In this document: piece by piece, positions 1,104-30,953 of the stretch | Layout of the letters: every line of letters begins with the position of its first letter | Position numbering within the stretch: position 1 is the first letter of the stretch | Virus record (IMG/VR): IMGVR_UViG_3300025011_000104 | Span: 1-37,227 of that record | From: a virus | Length of the DNA: 37,227 bases | Strand: one strand, 5' to 3' | Program-made: the position numbers and the translations under genes | The notes under the pieces: generated by a model | What the model was told of the DNA's origin: nothing | The model's database searches: none | The model's input: only the letters and a program-made list of their open reading frames with translations

Positions 1104-4100
1104 TGTTTGATCTGTTTGGAGAAGGCGAACAACCGGTAACCGACCCGTTCACCGGGCCGAAACCGTCCACCCTGGAAGTAATCGGCAAGGGGCTTATGCG
1201 CGGCGGCGTCAGGGCGGCAAAGGGTGCGGCGATGCTGGCCGCGCCGCTGGTGCCGTGGGGCGACGAGGACGACCCGCAGGCATTCCTTGAGTCGGATCAT
1301 ATCCTGCCGCGCAAGGAAGATTTTTTTAAATTCGTTGACGACGACACTGCGGAAAAGTTTTGGCAGGTCAACCCTGAAATGCTGTCTACATCGCAGAAGG
1401 TAATAGGCGCCCTATCGGAACTGCCGCTGCAGCTTGTTGCCGGTGGTGCAGGCATGACCGGGATCATGGCCATGAACACCGGCGTTGAAATGGTGAAAGC
1501 CGATGTTGACGACGCCACCGCCACCGGGCTGGGGGTCGGCGCCGGCGCCACTATGGGCGCCATGATTGCCCTGCCGCAGGCGGGTAAAACCCTGGCGCAG
1601 ACTATCGGCCTTGTACTCTCCAACCCGGCCATGGGTGCGGCCACCGATTACCTGAACAAGAAAGTGCTGGAAGGGCGCAGCTATGACGATCAAGCCAAAA
1701 TGTTCGACCCGTTCGACCCGGTGGCCCGTTCGGTCGACGTGATCCTGGGGGGAGTGTTCGGCGGCATTCACGAATACGGCCGCTGGCGCCAGCAAGCGCC
1801 CACCGAAGTGGTGGACGCCATCGACACCGCCGAAACCGTAAAGCACCGCGAAAACCTGAACCCTTTCATGCCGGACACTGAGCAGGCAACGGCCCACGGC
1901 GCGGCGCTGGGGAAAGCGCTGGACGATATTGCCGAGGGGCAGCCGGTCGACGTTGCTGAACGTTTTGCCGACGCCGGGAAAACGATCAAGCCAAGCTATA
2001 CCGCCGACCGGCTGCGCACGGATATCAAGGAAGCATTCGGCACGACGGACGAACAAGCTGATGCAGCTGTTGCCCTGGTAGCAGCCCGCGCCAAGGTGGC
2101 CGGCGAGGCTCTGGACGCCTACGTGGGCAAACGCATCGCCGGCGTCCGTACTGATGAACCAATGCCGGGCGCAGCTTTGTTTCAGTCTGCCAACGAATCC
2201 CGAATCCCGAATCCCGAATCCCGAATAGTGCAGCCGTTCTATTCAAAAGTGCTGGCTGAAGTCGAAGGGCTGCAGCAGGAAAAGTGGAACGCGGGCGACC
2301 TGCTGAACAAGTTGCGCAAAACGCCGGGAGTGAAAGAGGAAGAGATTGCATTCACCGGGCTGGATGAGTTTTTGACAGTGCAGAAGCGGGTTACGAAAGA
2401 AGACGTGTGGAGTTTCCTTTCTGACAATCAGGTGCGGATTGAAGAAGTGGTGAAGGGAGAAGGGCTAACCGATGCGGAGTGGACACAGTATGAAGAACTG
2501 ATTCGGCCTATCTCTCCACTCACTGAAAAGCAGCGACTAGAACTAGCTTTCTTTAAAGAAAAAATTAAAGGCAAAGTTAAGTTTGACGGCTATGCATTGT
2601 CGGGTGGCGAGAATTACCGGGAACTTCTATTGACGCTGCCGGATAAAGGTTTTGGCAAAAATTACTACGGCGGACACTTTGATGAAAGCAACATCTTGGC
2701 TCACGTCCGTTTCAATGAGCGCACCGGCGGCGCGGGTGAGCGCATCCTGCACCTGGAGGAAGTGCAAAGCGACTGGCACCAGGACCGCCGCGCCGGCAAA
2801 GATGTGCCGGACGCTCCTTTTACCAAATCATGGCACGAACTGGCAATGAAGCGGATGCTGCGCTGGGCCGCCGAAAACGGTTTTGACCGCCTGACCTGGA
2901 CGACTGGCGAACAGCAGGCGGCACGATATGACATTTCCAAGGTTATGGACAGCGTGACTTATGGGCGAGTAGGCACCATTTATCATATCAAAGGCATGAC
3001 TGTTGACGGCGTAAAGCATGAGTTCGGCACCTTCAACGAAAGTGACCTTAACGCCGCAGTGGGTAAAGAGCTGGGCGAAAAGATGAAAGCCGATAAACGC
3101 CAAAAAGCCACCTATGAAGGATTAGAACTGAAAATAGGCGGCGAAGGGATGAAAGGCTTTTACGACAAGATCCTGCCGATCTACATGGAAAAGTTCGGCC
3201 GCAAGTTCGGCGCGCGCGTAGAGCAAGCAGAGATTCTCACGAATCCCGAATCCCGAATCCCGGTTCACGGCATTCCAATTACCGAGGGTATGAGGAATGC
3301 GGTTTTATACGAAGGCCAGCCCCTATTCCAGGGAGAAAAGGGCGCCGTGTCGTTCCTGGCCGATGGCCGCGCCATGATTCATGCGCTGGAAGCGCCCGAC
3401 TTTTCCACGGTAACTCATGAACTGGCCCATGTATTCGAAGCCGATCTGTCGGCGGCCGAGCGCCGCGACTTTGACACCTGGCTGCATTCAGTGGTGCCCG
3501 GTACCAAGTGGAGCACTCAGCAGCGCGAGCTTTTTGCCCGGGCGTTCGAACGGTACCTGGCAGAAGGTAAAGCCCCGGTAAAGGAGCTGCAGAACGTGTT
3601 CGACAAGTTTAAGACATGGTTGCTGGAAGTGTACCGGCGCATTGCCGGCACGGCCATTGACGTGAAGATGAACGATAACGTGCGTGCCGCGTTCGACCGC
3701 ATGCTGTTTGCCGACCAGCTGCGGCGGCCGGTCGATCCGGAAACAACCAGGGTGCAAACGGAAATGCAGGCCCGCGTTGCCGAACTGCGGGAAGAAATGA
3801 AGGACATTTGGGGCGAAGAGGCCGAGACTCGGGAACCGGGAACCGGGAACCGGGAAAACCTGGAAGAGGTGGGGACTGGGAACCGGGAGCCGGGAGCCGG
3901 GGAAGTCGTCATGGATGCGGAGCCGACGGACGGGCAGGCCAAGGTCGAGACGGCCGCTGACATCATCTTGAAAGAGCGCGGCGACTTCGAAATATACGAC
4001 GGCACCGACGCCGCCGGCGAACCGCGCATGCGTTCGGCAGCCGAAGTGCTGACCGAGGCCCGCGCCGCCGTGGCGGTAGAACAGCAGCGCCGGCCGCTCT

Positions 4101-4139: not shown

Positions 4140-4170
4140 CCGAATCCCGAATCCCGAATCCCGAATCCCG
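4140..4170 (+). repeat. heptanucleotide repeat (GAATCCC)4 between two genes
   Basis: Four perfect GAATCCC units fill most of the 45-base gap between the 1010- and 866-residue genes. The array ends in CCCGAGG, and that GAGG is the likely ribosome-binding site for the GTG start at 4181. Confidence 0.9.
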
Positions 4171-4180
4171 AGGTTATAAA

Positions 4181-7192: not shown

Positions 7193-8842
7193 ATGCCGCC
7201 GAAAGGCAAGGGGAGACAACCGGTAAGTTTTCCGGCCTTCTTTCTGAAATGGGGTGAACGGGTAGGCTGGCAGGTGCCCGATTTTCATCTGCAAGTATGC
7301 GACTTCCTGGAATGGCAGCGGGAACGCAAAGTCTTGAAAGTGTTCCGGGGCGGCAGCAAATCCACGCTGCTGGGGCGTTACATCCCCTGGCGGCTGCGCG
7401 GCGATTCCGATTATCGTTTCCTGAACATGAGCGCCACGGCGCCCGACGCCACCAAGATCAGCGTCGATGCGCAGTTCGTCATCGACCAGCACCCCTGGTG
7501 CAAGAACCTGCGCAGCACCCGGCGCGGCCAGTGGAAAGAACGGCGCTGGTTCGTGGAAGGTTCCACCGATGCGCGGAACCCGAACGTGGCCGCTTTCGGG
7601 GTTTTGTCAAACGTCACATCGAGCCGCGCCGACGAAGCGATTTTTGATGACGTGGAAGTGCCGAACACCATAGCAACACCGCCGCTGCGCGCCAAGCTGC
7701 GCACCAAGATGAGCGAGCTAACCCACATCCTGGTACCGGGCGGCAGCAAGCTGTACGTAGGCACCGATCACTGTGTCGATTCCATTTACAAAGAGCAGAT
7801 CGAAGACGGCGCCGATCACCTGGTAATCCCGCTCTTTGCTAAGATGGTGCTGCATACCCAGGACCAGAAGCAGCCGACCACCGATTTCATGTTTGACTGG
7901 CGCCTGCAGCAAGAAGCCGACCTGTATGTGGTGGTAGGCGGCAAGCTGCTGGACCCGAAACAGTACCAGGTGCACGGCGTGCGCGATTACCGGGGCGGGT
8001 TTGTCCGGTTGCCGTTCCGGCCGATGGAAGGCACGGTAATCGAGCTGTACAGCGGCAACACCTGGCCGGAGTATTTCACCCGGGCGGCCATCCGGTTCAA
8101 GCGGAACGAATGCAAGACCATCAACGAATGGTTAAGCCAGTACCAGCTGCTGGCGCGCAGCCTCAAAGACGTGCGCCTGAATCCGGAACGGTTGATCGAG
8201 TACCCCGGCGAACCGGAAATCAGGCAGGTTAATGGCCAGGTAACCCTGTGGATAAACGGCGTGCAGATGATCACCGTTGCCGCGCACTGGGATTGTTCGC
8301 TGGGAAAGGTGCACAGCGATGCCAACGCCTTCAGTGTCGTGTTTTCCGACATGAACGGTTACCTGTACTGGCACGTTGCCGAGGACGTGCGGGGGGAGAT
8401 AGACAGCCAGTGTCTGGAAATCATCAAAATAGTGCGACGCCTGAAACTGCCCGCCGTGACGGTGGAAACCAATGGACCCGGCGGCCACGTGCCCACGATC
8501 CTGCGCGGCGCCCTGCAGCGGGCCGGCGTCCGCTGCGCGGTCAAAGAAAGCTGGAAGCACACGCAGAAGAATACCCGTATTCTGAACGCATTCGAAACGC
8601 CGCTATCGGGCCTGTACCTGTACGCCCATTCATCGGTCAAGCACGGCCCGGCAGCCAAGCAGATGCGGGAATGGGACCCGATGCTGTTGGAGCAGCCCGA
8701 CGACTATCTGGACAGCGGCGCCGGCGCCATTGCCGACACGCCGGTGCGTATCGGCCTGGACCCGGACGGCGCCCGCACCGTGGGAGAATTCACCGACTGG
8801 CGCCAGGGCACCGGAACTGCCGACCTGGCAATGGATATATAA
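7193..8842 (+). CDS. terL: terminase large subunit (T7 gp19-like), 549 aa
   Basis: This is the ATP-driven DNA-packaging motor and headful or terminal nuclease. The N-terminal ATPase domain shows a Walker A-type loop RGGSKST at residues 52-58 and a Walker B-type strand EAIFDDVE at about 148-155. The C-terminal RNase H-like nuclease domain begins around VAAHWDCSLG (near residue 360), with later acidic positions such as the E of VTVETNGPGG. Length is close to T7-like large terminases. ATG 7193 follows the putative small terminase with a weak AAGG-type site (GAAAGGCTGTG). It is the most conserved protein in the window and supports the T7-like packaging assignment. Confidence 0.9.
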   Translation: MPPKGKGRQPVSFPAFFLKWGERVGWQVPDFHLQVCDFLEWQRERKVLKVFRGGSKSTLLGRYIPWRLRGDSDYRFLNMSATAPDATKISVDAQFVIDQHPWCKNLRSTRRGQWKERRWFVEGSTDARNPNVAAFGVLSNVTSSRADEAIFDDVEVPNTIATPPLRAKLRTKMSELTHILVPGGSKLYVGTDHCVDSIYKEQIEDGADHLVIPLFAKMVLHTQDQKQPTTDFMFDWRLQQEADLYVVVGGKLLDPKQYQVHGVRDYRGGFVRLPFRPMEGTVIELYSGNTWPEYFTRAAIRFKRNECKTINEWLSQYQLLARSLKDVRLNPERLIEYPGEPEIRQVNGQVTLWINGVQMITVAAHWDCSLGKVHSDANAFSVVFSDMNGYLYWHVAEDVRGEIDSQCLEIIKIVRRLKLPAVTVETNGPGGHVPTILRGALQRAGVRCAVKESWKHTQKNTRILNAFETPLSGLYLYAHSSVKHGPAAKQMREWDPMLLEQPDDYLDSGAGAIADTPVRIGLDPDGARTVGEFTDWRQGTGTADLAMDI

Positions 8843-12342: not shown

Positions 12343-12387
12343 TGGTGCCCAGGGACGGAATCGAACCGCCGACACGAGGATTTTCAG
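12343..12387 (-). other. attP: attP core: copy of the 3' half of tRNA-Phe
   Basis: The 45 bases, read on the minus strand, start with CTGAAAATCC (anticodon loop, anticodon GAA) and continue through the variable and T arms (GGTTCGATTCC) to the acceptor end GGGCACCA. Only the 3' half of the tRNA is present, with phage genes on both sides, as expected for attP rather than a tRNA gene or attL/attR. The integrase gene is immediately adjacent, and its stop codon lies inside the core. This identifies the host target as the tRNA-Phe gene. Confidence 0.9.
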
Positions 12388-13517
12388 ATTTTAGGGCGGG
12401 TTTGTGCAGCCTTGGCTGTGGCTGGTTTGCGCTTTTTTGAAACATCTGCTGTGGATTTCGCTTTTTTCTTTTCTGTTGCCGGCTTTCCTTCGGTGAAGAG
12501 GCTGAATTTTGCTGCTTCGTTGTCCAGGTAGTTAGCGACGTGGGTGTATCCTTCGGTTACGTGGCTGGTGCTGTGACCCATGATGTACTGTACCTGGCGC
12601 AGGCCGAGGCCGGCTACAATGGCATGCGTGCCGAAGTTGTGCCGCAATAGGTGGTGATATACCCTTTTGTCTATTCCGGCGGCGGCAGCGGCTCGTTTCA
12701 GCGCTTTTCGGATTCCTTGATAGGGTTTGTTCTTGTTTTTCGGGTTCAGGAACAGGTGCCCGCTTTTCACATTCTTTAACCGTTCTTCCAGCGCCTGGCG
12801 CAGTCGGCTGGTAAGAATTGGTACGATTCTTTCCTTGTTGCCCTTGCCTCGCACGTATATGCAGTTGAACTGCAGGTCTATGTCTTCGGCACGCAGGCCG
12901 AAGTATGTTTCATCACCCAGGGCTTCGGAGCGGCGTAGGCCGGCGTCATTGTACAGCAGGAAGATGGCGCGGTATTCCTGTTCAATAAAGCGCAGCATGG
13001 CGGTTACTTCGTTTGGGTGCAGGGGGCGCGGCTTGGGTGCTTTGGTCTGTTTGGCGGGAAAGAGGCGTACCTTGACGGGCTCGCAGTAATGGTGATCGGC
13101 GCACCAGCGGAGGAAGCCGGAGAAATAGGAGAGATGTTTGTTGATGGTCCGTTTGGATAGTTTCAATTCCAGCTGCCGGGCCTTGAATTGCTCGATGATC
13201 AGGCCGGATATTTCGGCCAGGTACATGGTGCCAAAGTAATTGACCAAATGCACCAGGGCGGTTTCCAGATCCTTGACGGTGCTGGCGGCATGGTCGTTTC
13301 GATATTGCGCTTTCCAGTCGGGCAGTAACTGGAAAACCTTGGGGTTGATGGTGGGTACCGGCTCGCGGCGGGAGACGCGCACCATCTCCATGTGGAAGGC
13401 GTGCGCGCCCGCTTCGGTTCCGGGAAAGTGGCGCTGGGGACGGCGGCCGTTGCGACCTTCGGGGCGCCAGTCTACCAGGTAGCAGTTTTCGTGTTTGGGG
13501 CATTTGCGGACGGCCAT
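12384..13517 (-). CDS. int: tyrosine integrase, 377 aa
   Basis: This site-specific recombinase integrates the phage at the tRNA-Phe gene. The C-terminal catalytic domain carries the tyrosine-recombinase set: Arg in NDAGLRRSE (~R195), Lys in VRGKGNKER, HHLLR (~H289/R292), GHST (~H315) and the nucleophile in EGYTH (~Y324). The N-terminal ~165 residues include a SAM-like core-binding domain with TVKDLETALVHLVNYFG. I prefer the ATG at 13517, which follows GGTGAT; an in-frame ATG at 13544 has no ribosome site and overlaps the upstream gene. The TGA stop (12384-12386) lies within the attP core, so it survives integration. The gene is co-oriented with the repressor. Confidence 0.9.
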   Translation of the reverse strand: MAVRKCPKHENCYLVDWRPEGRNGRRPQRHFPGTEAGAHAFHMEMVRVSRREPVPTINPKVFQLLPDWKAQYRNDHAASTVKDLETALVHLVNYFGTMYLAEISGLIIEQFKARQLELKLSKRTINKHLSYFSGFLRWCADHHYCEPVKVRLFPAKQTKAPKPRPLHPNEVTAMLRFIEQEYRAIFLLYNDAGLRRSEALGDETYFGLRAEDIDLQFNCIYVRGKGNKERIVPILTSRLRQALEERLKNVKSGHLFLNPKNKNKPYQGIRKALKRAAAAAGIDKRVYHHLLRHNFGTHAIVAGLGLRQVQYIMGHSTSHVTEGYTHVANYLDNEAAKFSLFTEGKPATEKKKAKSTADVSKKRKPATAKAAQTRPKI

Positions 13518-13521
13518 TAGA

Positions 13522-13977
13522 TCACCGTATTGTCTGGGGACCATAAATACGGTCTATGTAAAATAAAATTTCATTTAAAAAGTAATCATCTTTTGCTAAA
13601 TACGAATCAAAGGTTGCCTTCGCGGCATTGGCACCACTCATCATGTCATATTCATGTTTTTTGCTGTCTAGCTTAAAGTGTGAAAGTAGTTCTAGCGACG
13701 AAATTTCGTACAGCAAAGCCAAAACCTTCCATGACTTGTTAAGCATTTCAGTCTTATCTCGTTCTCCAAGCATGCAAATAAATTCAATCGATAGTCTTTG
13801 GCAATAGCCAAATAAATAATAATCACAGAATAAGTGTGTTGGGTATTTGCCGTTATTATGCTTTTTGATGTATTTAAAAAAAGGATAAATTTTTTTGTGT
13901 GCTTCAATAACATCTGGCTCGACTAAACCAAAGATGTTGCACATTATGTTTTTGCACATGGTCCGGAAAAAACCCAT
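13522..13977 (-). CDS. protein of unknown function between repressor and integrase, 151 aa
   Basis: The ATG at 13977 overlaps the repressor stop (GTGATGG), indicating coupling; a GTG three bases earlier is also possible. The product is rich in Phe, Tyr, Ile, Cys and Lys and largely helical, with no signal peptide or clear membrane span. Codon use is strikingly AT-rich compared with the integrase and the rest of the genome. Being in the lysogeny operon it should be expressed from the prophage, so an accessory 'moron' role such as superinfection exclusion or phage defence is plausible. That is inference from context, and no family was recognised. Confidence 0.65.
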   Translation of the reverse strand: MGFFRTMCKNIMCNIFGLVEPDVIEAHKKIYPFFKYIKKHNNGKYPTHLFCDYYLFGYCQRLSIEFICMLGERDKTEMLNKSWKVLALLYEISSLELLSHFKLDSKKHEYDMMSGANAAKATFDSYLAKDDYFLNEILFYIDRIYGPQTIR

Positions 13978-14393
13978 CACCCAGCCTCTTTGTCTTCGCG
14001 TTGTTTTAGTAAATCCCGCAGCAGTTTCTCTTTTTCAACACTAAGGCGAATATCTTTCTTAGTGTCGTCATCCATTGCCTCCATAACTTTTATCACCGCT
14101 TGTATCTGTGAATCGGGATGCAGAAATCCGTATTTTGTTTCCGGTTCTGCAACCAGGGAGGATCGAAGCATTTCACCTCTTCCAGTCCGCAGCCAATCCT
14201 CAGAAATTCCACGTTTTGTAAACACATTGTAGTCGGCAATCTTGCCGCGCGCTTTCCAGGCCGAAAGTGTTTTGTTGCTTACACCAAGCCAGTCCGCAAG
14301 TTCTTTGTCTTCGTGAAAACCAAAATGGTTTTTTAGTTCTGAGACTACACTGAAGACAGGATGTAGATTTTTTGTTGACATTTTGTAGATCAT
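13977..14393 (-). CDS. CI-type lysogeny repressor, 138 aa
   Basis: The N-terminal half contains a helix-turn-helix, KELADWLGVSNKTLSAWKAR (about residues 30-49), followed by GISEDWLRTGRGEM. This is the pattern of the phage CI repressor HTH family (as in phage 186-like repressors), in which a 'DWL.tG.G' segment closes the domain. The C-terminal ~60 residues are a charged helix (MEAMDDDTKKDIRLSVEKEK), probably for dimerisation. There is no S24 peptidase domain, so RecA-stimulated self-cleavage is not expected and induction must use another route. The start at 14393 has AAGG upstream. It is transcribed away from the early genes across a 71-bp operator region. Confidence 0.8.
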   Translation of the reverse strand: MIYKMSTKNLHPVFSVVSELKNHFGFHEDKELADWLGVSNKTLSAWKARGKIADYNVFTKRGISEDWLRTGRGEMLRSSLVAEPETKYGFLHPDSQIQAVIKVMEAMDDDTKKDIRLSVEKEKLLRDLLKQREDKEAG

Positions 14394-14735: not shown

Positions 14736-15011
14736 ATGCCTGAAGAACAGAAAAACCAGGACGTGAGGATCGTAGTACTGCAACGCGGCTTTGTAGCGGT
14801 CGGCCGGTTCACCCAGGATGGCGAACAGTGCCGGCTGGAAGATGCTGCAATTATTCGCCGCTGGGGAACTACCAAGGGCTTGGGCCAGATTGCCGCCGAT
14901 GGCCCAACTTCAAACACGATTCTCGATAAATCCCCTGCCCTTCGTTTTCACGCGCTGACCGTCATTACCACAATCGATTGTGAGGCCGGAAAATGGAACG
15001 CCCATTTATAG
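14736..15011 (+). CDS. early protein of unknown function, 91 aa
   Basis: The ATG at 14736 is best spaced from the strong AAGGAGGG site (14721-14728); the ATG at 14730 would be too close to it. The product begins acidic (MPEEQKNQDV), continues with beta-type sequence (RIVVLQRGFVAVGRFTQDG) and contains IIRRWGTTKGLGQIA, which resembles short phage proteins encoded next to replication or regulatory genes. No catalytic motif is visible. The 3' end overlaps the start of the DG/YG-repeat frame at 14993. Function unknown. Confidence 0.6.
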   Translation: MPEEQKNQDVRIVVLQRGFVAVGRFTQDGEQCRLEDAAIIRRWGTTKGLGQIAADGPTSNTILDKSPALRFHALTVITTIDCEAGKWNAHL

Positions 15012-15202
15012 GCGAAAATAGCCAGAGTACTGGCGTAAAGGATGGCTATGGCGATGGCGATGGCTATGGCTATGGCGATGGCGATGGCTATGGCTATGGC
15101 GATGGCTATGGCTATGGCTATGGCTATGGCGATGGCGATGGCGATGGCTATGGCGATGGCTATGGCTATGGCGATGGCGATGGCTATGGCGATGGCTATT
15201 AA
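14993..15202 (+). CDS. repeat peptide of alternating DG and YG dipeptides, 69 aa, putative
   Basis: ATG 14993 opens a frame with a normal 16-residue lead-in (MERPFIGENSQSTGVK) followed by about 27 Asp-Gly or Tyr-Gly dipeptides up to TAA at 15200. The stop falls exactly at the end of the repeat and is followed by a terminator seven bases on, which favours this frame over the overlapping Met-Ala frame that runs past the terminator. There is only a weak ribosome site, and the start overlaps the upstream gene by 19 bases, allowing coupling. The peptide would be disordered, acidic and aromatic. Function unknown, and the expression itself is uncertain. Confidence 0.4.
   Translation: MERPFIGENSQSTGVKDGYGDGDGYGYGDGDGYGYGDGYGYGYGYGDGDGDGYGDGYGYGDGDGYGDGY
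15041..15199 (+). repeat. hexanucleotide tandem repeat, GATGGC/TATGGC
   Basis: About 26.5 head-to-tail hexamers, each either GATGGC or TATGGC, in an irregular two-letter order with no other variant in the array. Only the first base of each unit varies. Every reading frame across it stays open on at least four of the six frames. Six-base units keep the frame if copy number changes. Confidence 0.95.
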
Positions 15203-15208
15203 GAGCAC

Positions 15209-15239
15209 GGGAAGCGGGCAAGCCTGCTTCCCTGTTTTT
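15209..15239 (+). terminator. Rho-independent terminator after the hexamer repeat
   Basis: Hairpin GGGAAGC / GCTTCCC with an inner GGC-AA-GCC, followed by TGTTTTT. It would end the first early transcript after the repeat peptide, 20 bases before the next gene's ribosome site. Confidence 0.75.
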
Positions 15240-15259
15240 ACAGCAACAGGAGGGGGCAG

Positions 15260-15643
15260 ATGGAAAAGCTGATCGAGGTTAGCGCTGACATTATTCGTGA
15301 ACTGCCGGACATGCGGGCGACAATCCGTACTTGCATTCTGGTTTCCGGATTACCACTTAAAGCAGTTGCTTATGAGCTGGATATAAAACCCGATCATCTT
15401 AGCAAGATGATCAATCCTTCCGAAGATCCCCGCCACTTCCCCCCCAACAAGATCGAAAAATTAATGCAGGTGTGTAACAACCACGTGCCGCTTTTGTGGC
15501 TCTTGTTCCGTATGGGATTCGACCAGCCGCGCACCGTTGGCACGCTACAGGACGAAAACGCCCGCCTTAAATCTGAAATCAAGCGCCTGCAGAGCGACCA
15601 CAATCACGTCATGAATATTTTTAAAAACATCGAGGTTCGCTAG
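15260..15643 (+). CDS. CII-like helix-turn-helix regulator, 127 aa
   Basis: AGGAGGGGG lies six bases before ATG 15260. Residues ~33-50 (LPLKAVAYELDIKPDHLSKM) form a helix-turn-helix of the type found in CII/phage regulatory proteins. The following segment (SEDPRHFPPNKIEKLMQVCN...WLLFRMG) matches the 'minimum unit for regulator choice' arrangement seen in phage CII-like or DUF1804-like families. The C-terminal ~35 residues form a coiled coil (LQDENARLKSEIKRLQSD) suited to dimerisation. It probably controls lysogeny or early promoters. The stop overlaps the GTG of the next gene (TAGTG). Confidence 0.65.
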   Translation: MEKLIEVSADIIRELPDMRATIRTCILVSGLPLKAVAYELDIKPDHLSKMINPSEDPRHFPPNKIEKLMQVCNNHVPLLWLLFRMGFDQPRTVGTLQDENARLKSEIKRLQSDHNHVMNIFKNIEVR

Positions 15644-30366: not shown

Positions 30367-30371
30367 CGGCC

Positions 30372-30401
30372 GGGACTCGGGATTCGTGAATCGGGATTCG
30401 G
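30372..30401 (+). repeat. heptanucleotide repeat GGGACTC-GGGATTC-GTGAATC-GGGATTC
   Basis: Four tandem heptamers between the capsid gene and the following head gene. This is the complement orientation of the arrays at 2195, 3241 and 4140. Confidence 0.85.
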
Positions 30402-30911: not shown

Positions 30912-30914
30912 GTC

Positions 30915-30942
30915 GGGATTCGGGACTCGGGAACCGGGATTC
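30915..30942 (+). repeat. heptanucleotide repeat GGGATTC-GGGACTC-GGGAACC-GGGATTC
   Basis: Four tandem heptamers immediately after the head gene and before a terminator. The units are mixed, like those in the array at 3826. Confidence 0.85.
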
Positions 30943-30953
30943 GTAAAGGCTTT

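Follow-up and report, generated by a model that had tools for sequence, protein, structure and literature searches.

A viral DNA stretch of 37,227 bases (IMG/VR record IMGVR_UViG_3300025011_000104, called the window here) carries a tandem array of the hexamers GATGGC and TATGGC, which encodes a chain of Gly alternating with Asp or Tyr. This array appears to make up most of the second gene in a conserved phage cassette of two genes, the first of which encodes a small DUF6948-like protein with a predicted Sm/LSm-like barrel. Array genes of this class, written (X-G)n, and their DUF6948-like partners look like a widespread and undescribed phage gene pair. Hundreds of phage contigs carry it, as do cultured phages and some bacterial genomes, that of Neisseria gonorrhoeae among them. 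It is very probable that the two genes form a pair, that selection acts at the protein level and that the hexamers are shuffled, the three taken jointly. The complete explanation, in which selection holds the composition of the chain and the chain docks on the partner protein, is given a probability of about 0.55.

The array gene of the window

The array has 26 perfect hexamers (15041-15196), followed by TAT (15197-15199) and the stop codon TAA (15200-15202), and behind the gene lies a hairpin with a stem of 10 pairs (15209-15232) and the tail TGTTTTT. The original prediction, made from the sequence alone, had described about 26.5 such hexamers in irregular order with a stop codon and a terminator directly behind them, which agrees with these results; it was silent on the start of the array gene and on the partner gene. 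The units follow the order D Y D D Y Y D D Y Y D Y Y Y Y D D D Y D Y Y D D Y D, with 13 Asp and 13 Tyr, and all Gly codons are GGC and all third bases of the X codons are T. Tandem Repeats Finder scored this array far higher than every other array in the window. The frame has an in-frame ATG at 14993, with GAGG upstream. The uniformity of the array is not codon bias, because GAT makes up 33% of the Asp codons and TAT 40% of the Tyr codons in the large genes of the window. With the codon usage of the window, the chance of 27 consecutive T-ending codons is about 10^-12 and that of 26 GGC codons about 10^-6, and an origin by chance or codon bias was rejected.

Pairing with a DUF6948-like gene

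Judged by gene order, the X-G array class is one half of a gene pair. Of the 188 array loci that have 500 nt or more of upstream sequence, 172 have the partner directly upstream on the same strand, as found with an iterated hidden Markov model; its stop lies a median of 20 nt before the array, and the best-scoring start of the array gene a median of 13 nt before the end of that stop. In the window, where the partner frame also opens at ATG 14697 (104 amino acids), the first 19 nt of the array gene overlap the end of the partner gene on the same strand, an arrangement that suggests coupled translation. The reverse test, independent of the array, was a search with the partner alignment that gave 280 relatives, the best 80 of which were read. 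An X-G array lies within 1.5 kb downstream of the partner in 66 of the 67 loci with at least 300 nt downstream, and within 120 nt in 62; two of the 66 arrays are Thr-Gly and a few are degenerate. Thr-Gly arrays, not Tyr/Asp-Gly, stand behind the same partner family in L318 and L324. The family PF22253 (DUF6948) occurs in 14 of 21 genomes chosen for an array, versus 1 of 395 and 0 of 369 in two class samples. In one locus (L029) the array is fused to a DUF6948-like domain in a single open reading frame, and PHROG 18306 matches both the partner and the array parts.

Several array partners score far above the Pfam cut-off for DUF6948, a family to which Pfam gives no function. The partner in the window belongs to a subfamily (VLQRGW...RxWGTTKGL), with most of which it is 39-53% identical, that stays below this cut-off of 27 bits: the window protein gives no match at E<=1 and its nearest relatives score 15-19 bits. 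It is named DUF6948-like because its whole-protein score is below the cut-off; a profile built without the window and with accepted DUF6948 members matches it at E=1.5e-23 and places it in the wider family.

The (X-G)n array class and selection on the chain

The window array belongs to a large phage class in which Tyr, Asp, Ser and Asn are the main X residues. A degenerate [DY]G pattern matched at least 120 stretches in viral contigs, where the count for a narrower pattern is likewise a lower bound; this narrower pattern matched 39 stretches in 84,980 bacterial and archaeal genomes. Among the matches listed there are 268 distinct array reading frames from 221 loci, with a median of 32.5 units. 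The X residues are Tyr (3255), Asp (2218), Ser (1981) and Asn (691), others being rare, in proportions that should not be read as exact, the first pattern favouring Asp and Tyr. The chain is acidic in all cases.

In 99 arrays from the first pattern, which leaves third bases unfixed, the median heterozygosity is 0.54 at the first and 0.36 at the second base of X, and 0 at the third bases of X and Gly, both of which are perfectly uniform in 55 arrays. Thus, most arrays use a single Gly codon and a single third base of X while X itself is mixed, as in the window, and between arrays the codons differ while the peptide pattern is kept. Ser is encoded by TCY, one base away from the Tyr codons TAY, and hardly ever by AGY. 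Among the six amino acids one step away from TAY, the transition neighbours His and Cys are the rarest and Asp, Ser and Asn are far above them, so the choice of X residues argues for selection on amino acids. This points to the amino-acid composition of the array as what is selected.

The leader of the array gene (MERPFIGENSQSTGVK in the window) supports the same reading. In window-subfamily leaders, the motif GE[DNE]SQ[STNA] or a close form is present in 14 loci, with varying codons for Gly (GGG/GGC/GGA), Ser (AGC/AGT/TCG/TCC/TCT/TCA) and Gln (CAA/CAG). The gene overlap cannot explain this motif, because it follows the partner stop in the window. The leader is thus conserved as protein and not in its codons, which is short of proof of expression, and the array gene is probably translated. 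Together with the choice of X residues, this bears out the suggestion of the original prediction that an Asp/Tyr peptide is selected.

Array variation between near-identical phages

Variation was examined in 15 phage isolates of the same array class, from Rheinheimera Barba phages and Pectobacterium phages. Array lengths differ only by multiples of 6, the order of the units is scrambled and the frame is kept. It had been proposed that copy number and order could vary without loss of the gene, and that frame-breaking changes in relatives would speak against this; among these isolates there are none.

The gene pair is present in the Rheinheimera Barba phages, which comprise 115 records and share a single host strain. 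The 300 nt upstream and 100 nt downstream of the array are identical in Barba1A and four near relatives, but the units of their arrays differ through an N/Y replacement, a swap of N and Y or the insertion of a single hexamer. In Barba19A and 31A, with 1 difference upstream, most of the array is different and its length is greater by 30 and 42 nt. The Pectobacterium phages Ymer and Amona have identical flanks, and the Amona array is 18 nt shorter and scrambled; all units remain TAC, GAC, TCC or TTC followed by GGC, except a constant end GAAGGT.

Block repeats are in excess of shuffles across the array class. Common blocks between the scrambled Pectobacterium arrays are mostly no more than expected by chance, so the path of shuffling is not reconstructable. 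Whole-unit slippage or unequal recombination fits these changes, while point mutation alone does not, because synonymous sites hardly move.

For the window itself, no close relatives with an array were found: its terminase relatives (L122-L126, of which L122 and L123 are fragments) are without one, single-protein searches with the CII-like and partner proteins gave none, and a DNA search gave no useful phage match. None was present in 398 genomes of one order either, a result that is uninformative without a positive control.

Predicted fold of the partner

The AlphaFold2 model of the window partner, made with 85 relatives, has a predicted local distance difference test score (pLDDT) of 91.8. 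The Foldseek and VIA matches of this model are dominated by Sm/LSm proteins, and the top rows of the structure search are nearly all of this type, the designed cage TIP60 aside. PDB 3BY7, which is described as structurally similar to Sm/LSm proteins, matches with a VIA Z of 8.1 and a root-mean-square deviation of 2.1 over 67 residues. The partner is thus likely to be LSm-like, by predicted fold only.

Proposed explanation

In the proposed explanation, the product of the second gene, which starts inside the end of the first, would be a short leader followed by a flexible, acidic and Tyr-rich (X-G)n chain. Selection would see the composition of this chain, Tyr with Asp, Ser or Asn alternating with Gly, and not its order. 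Units are gained, dropped and reordered in steps of a whole hexamer, probably through slippage during replication or through unequal recombination, and the frame therefore survives. The leader may dock on an LSm-like oligomer, so that the chain would form a multivalent Tyr/Asp arm; the complex would then serve nucleic acid or protein as a scaffold or condensate, or the chain would mimic RNA on the ring. A physical partnership of the two proteins is somewhat more likely than not, while a scaffold or RNA-mimic role of the chain is itself unlikely. It is a tentative proposal that an LSm-like ring with a co-translated, fast-shuffling Tyr/Asp-Gly chain makes up an undescribed early-infection system, acting as an RNA-protein condensate scaffold or RNA mimic, in which order is free and composition is selected.

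Several points weigh against this explanation. The partner is not directly upstream in 16 of the array loci with room for it, some of which are clusters of array paralogues. The best Foldseek E-value is 1.8e-3, a Z of about 8 can mean a common arrangement, and the partner profile gave no match at E<=10 among PDB sequences, a comparison in which remote homology often escapes detection. With a median net charge of +1 the partner is almost neutral, so electrostatic pairing with the chain is not obvious. The differences between isolate arrays could in part be short-read assembly errors in repeats; random misassembly is argued against by the Barba phages, in which the array length class tracks the genome length class among the rows listed and the genome of Barba 10-9I exceeds the common length of 80,556 bases by exactly 6.

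If the pairing is functional, it gives access, in a phage model of simple genetics, to two questions: the role of LSm-like proteins in phages, and how selection can keep the composition of a disordered chain but not its order. The gene pair can be tested directly in the cultured Rheinheimera phages.

Alternative explanations

The chain could act alone as a structural, adhesive or matrix-like peptide, similar to silk or lamprin, for example in the cell envelope or virion, with the two genes being merely co-inherited operon neighbours. In its alternating X-G pattern the chain resembles matrix proteins rich in Gly and Tyr, the array protein is labelled 'lamprin' in one phage record, and arrays occur as paralogue clusters, some without the partner directly upstream. 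However, the neighbours of the pair are early genes (repressors, RecT, HNH, methyltransferases, primase and Holliday junction resolvase) and not virion genes, the partner is nearly invariant, and the leaders listed are short, with none signal-peptide-like by eye. The Rheinheimera phage paper is without virion proteomics. This alternative is considered improbable.

An array that works as DNA or RNA, in packaging, in recombination or as an RNA-structure element, with an incidental peptide, is less probable again. The window array RNA folds to -112.5 kcal/mol (z -16.7 versus dinucleotide shuffles), with a long hairpin possible, and most arrays keep to one Gly codon and to uniform third bases, as described above. 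Unit order has no effect on this folding, since 300 unit permutations fold equally well (z -0.02), and RNA structure was rejected as the reason for unit order; the original prediction had allowed for a DNA or RNA feature, which in this form was not borne out. Arrays of the C type fold less well (-0.35 versus -0.54 kcal/mol per nt), the X residues obey amino-acid rules and not base rules, and the peptide pattern and the leader persist while codons change. The array RNA hairpin may promote slippage and is not the conserved feature.

Similarly low in probability is a dedicated diversification system that rewrites X, through targeted mutation or through recombination from a template, like those of hypervariable antigen or receptor-binding loci. 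Arrays are scrambled while 300 nt upstream are identical, only X positions vary, and tandem paralogues could be donors. Length changes are always whole hexamers, however, and shared blocks are mostly at chance level, both of which could result from slippage and unequal exchange; no machinery dedicated to diversification was identified, although no search aimed at a reverse transcriptase was made.

Least probable is a selfish or neutral expansion, a slippage-prone coding repeat tolerated at a gene end, which would account for the array turnover that is fast relative to the flanks, for growth by slippage and for the excess of block repeats, but not for one residue alphabet across phages of many hosts, mixed X with uniform synonymous sites, one partner family at 66 of 67 loci and a conserved leader.

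Other forms of the array locus

Arrays are fused to a C-terminal TGSC domain in 22 cases, to an N-terminal GAC domain in 10 and in others to DUF7666. The C-terminal domain (L076, L055, L128 and 19 others, alignment A4) has the conserved motifs FAHGxT and WHxxLTGSCxxGR; its model is confident (pLDDT 95), has no PDB match and yields no function. The N-terminal domain, with a GACxxGV motif, is found in L038, L112, L164, L178 and L232. Tandem array paralogues, 4 to about 10 per cluster, with leaders or tails that stay constant while the arrays are scrambled, are present in L005, L009, L050, L182, L239, L245 and L261.

In two bacterial records listed as plasmids, DUF6948-like genes are followed by an array: Neisseria gonorrhoeae (L390, 1446-1772), where the array has no listed gene in an incomplete gene table, and Monoglobus (L391, 1446-2228), where it is fused to the C-terminal domain. 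In public annotation, the array gene is in the wrong frame (MAMA) in Chlorobiaceae phage CV-1-33 (L374, 1843-2088), missing in Iodobacter phage PhiPLPE (L375, 1173-1409) and called 'lamprin' in another phage record (L372, 2749-3063).

Features of the window

The window phage is temperate, with integrase, CI-like repressor and CII-like regulator genes, and the array gene sits between the latter two (Table 1). A 45-base stretch at 12343-12387, adjoining the integrase, is 93.5% identical to part of a tRNA-Phe gene; ARAGORN detected no complete tRNA. The stretch is probably the attachment site of the phage. The terminase (7193-8842) is like that of T7-like and related lytic phages, with best matches in Yersinia phages YeP4-6 (41-42%), despite the integrase and repressor in the genome. 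Short arrays of seven-base units (CGAATCC, CGGGAAC, GGGAGCC and relatives) lie at 2194-2226, 3240-3262, 3830-3856, 3878-3901, 4140-4171, 30371-30401 and 30913-30943, some inside reading frames, where they give ESRIPNP- or REPGTGN-like peptides.

Table 1. Position and basis of the array gene, its partner and neighbouring features in the window
Feature	Position	Strand	Basis
Integrase	12384-13544	-	
CI-like repressor	13977-14393	-	
Partner gene, DUF6948-like, 91 amino acids from ATG 14736, predicted Sm/LSm-like barrel	14736-15011	+	Profile match, model
Probable ribosome-binding site of array gene, TGTGAGG (approximate), within partner gene	14980-14986	+	Consensus match only
Array gene: leader + (D/Y-G)26 + Y, stop TAA, 69 amino acids	14993-15202	+	Reading frame, leader motif conserved in relatives
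Conserved leader, motif GE[DNE]SQ[STNA] (window form GENSQS)	14993-15040	+	14 loci, synonymous codons vary
Hexamer array: 26 GATGGC/TATGGC units + TAT	15041-15199	+	Sequence, Tandem Repeats Finder
Intrinsic-terminator-like hairpin + T tail	15209-15242	+	Consensus scan
CII-like regulator	15260-15643	+	

Comparison with known systems

In the open literature, no relevant paper was found with array peptide strings, DUF6948 or DUF7666, which is weak evidence since most subscription papers and preprints lie outside this scope. The pair seems to have gone unnoticed because the array gene is of low complexity, and is masked in searches, read in the wrong frame, omitted or labelled 'lamprin'.

Sm/LSm proteins such as PDB 3BY7 share the predicted barrel with the partner, and eukaryotic Sm proteins carry Gly-dipeptide tails (Gly-Arg), to which the array chain bears a likeness. 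Here, in contrast, a separate protein carries the acidic, Tyr-rich repeat chain in most cases, and the partner has no PDB sequence match. Lamprin and keratin-associated proteins (high glycine-tyrosine matrix) share the Gly/Tyr-rich low complexity with the arrays, but are animal extracellular proteins with other repeat units, and the 'lamprin' label is probably an artefact of low complexity. Slippage-based contingency (phase-variation) loci also change the copy number of short coding repeats between close relatives. The arrays differ from them in that the unit is 6 bases and length differences are multiples of 6, which keeps the frame and gives no on/off switching.

The nearest described behaviour is that of Borg elements, whose in-frame tandem repeats are described as error-free copies in many unrelated proteins (PMC9879509). 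These repeats and the arrays share a unit divisible by three that keeps the frame, fast evolution and chains predicted to be disordered. The window array is not made of perfect copies, X varying between units, and arrays differ from Borg repeats in having one mixed residue per unit and one constant partner gene. The array itself is best regarded as a form of fast-evolving in-frame coding repeat; the pair, as a system, may be new in kind.
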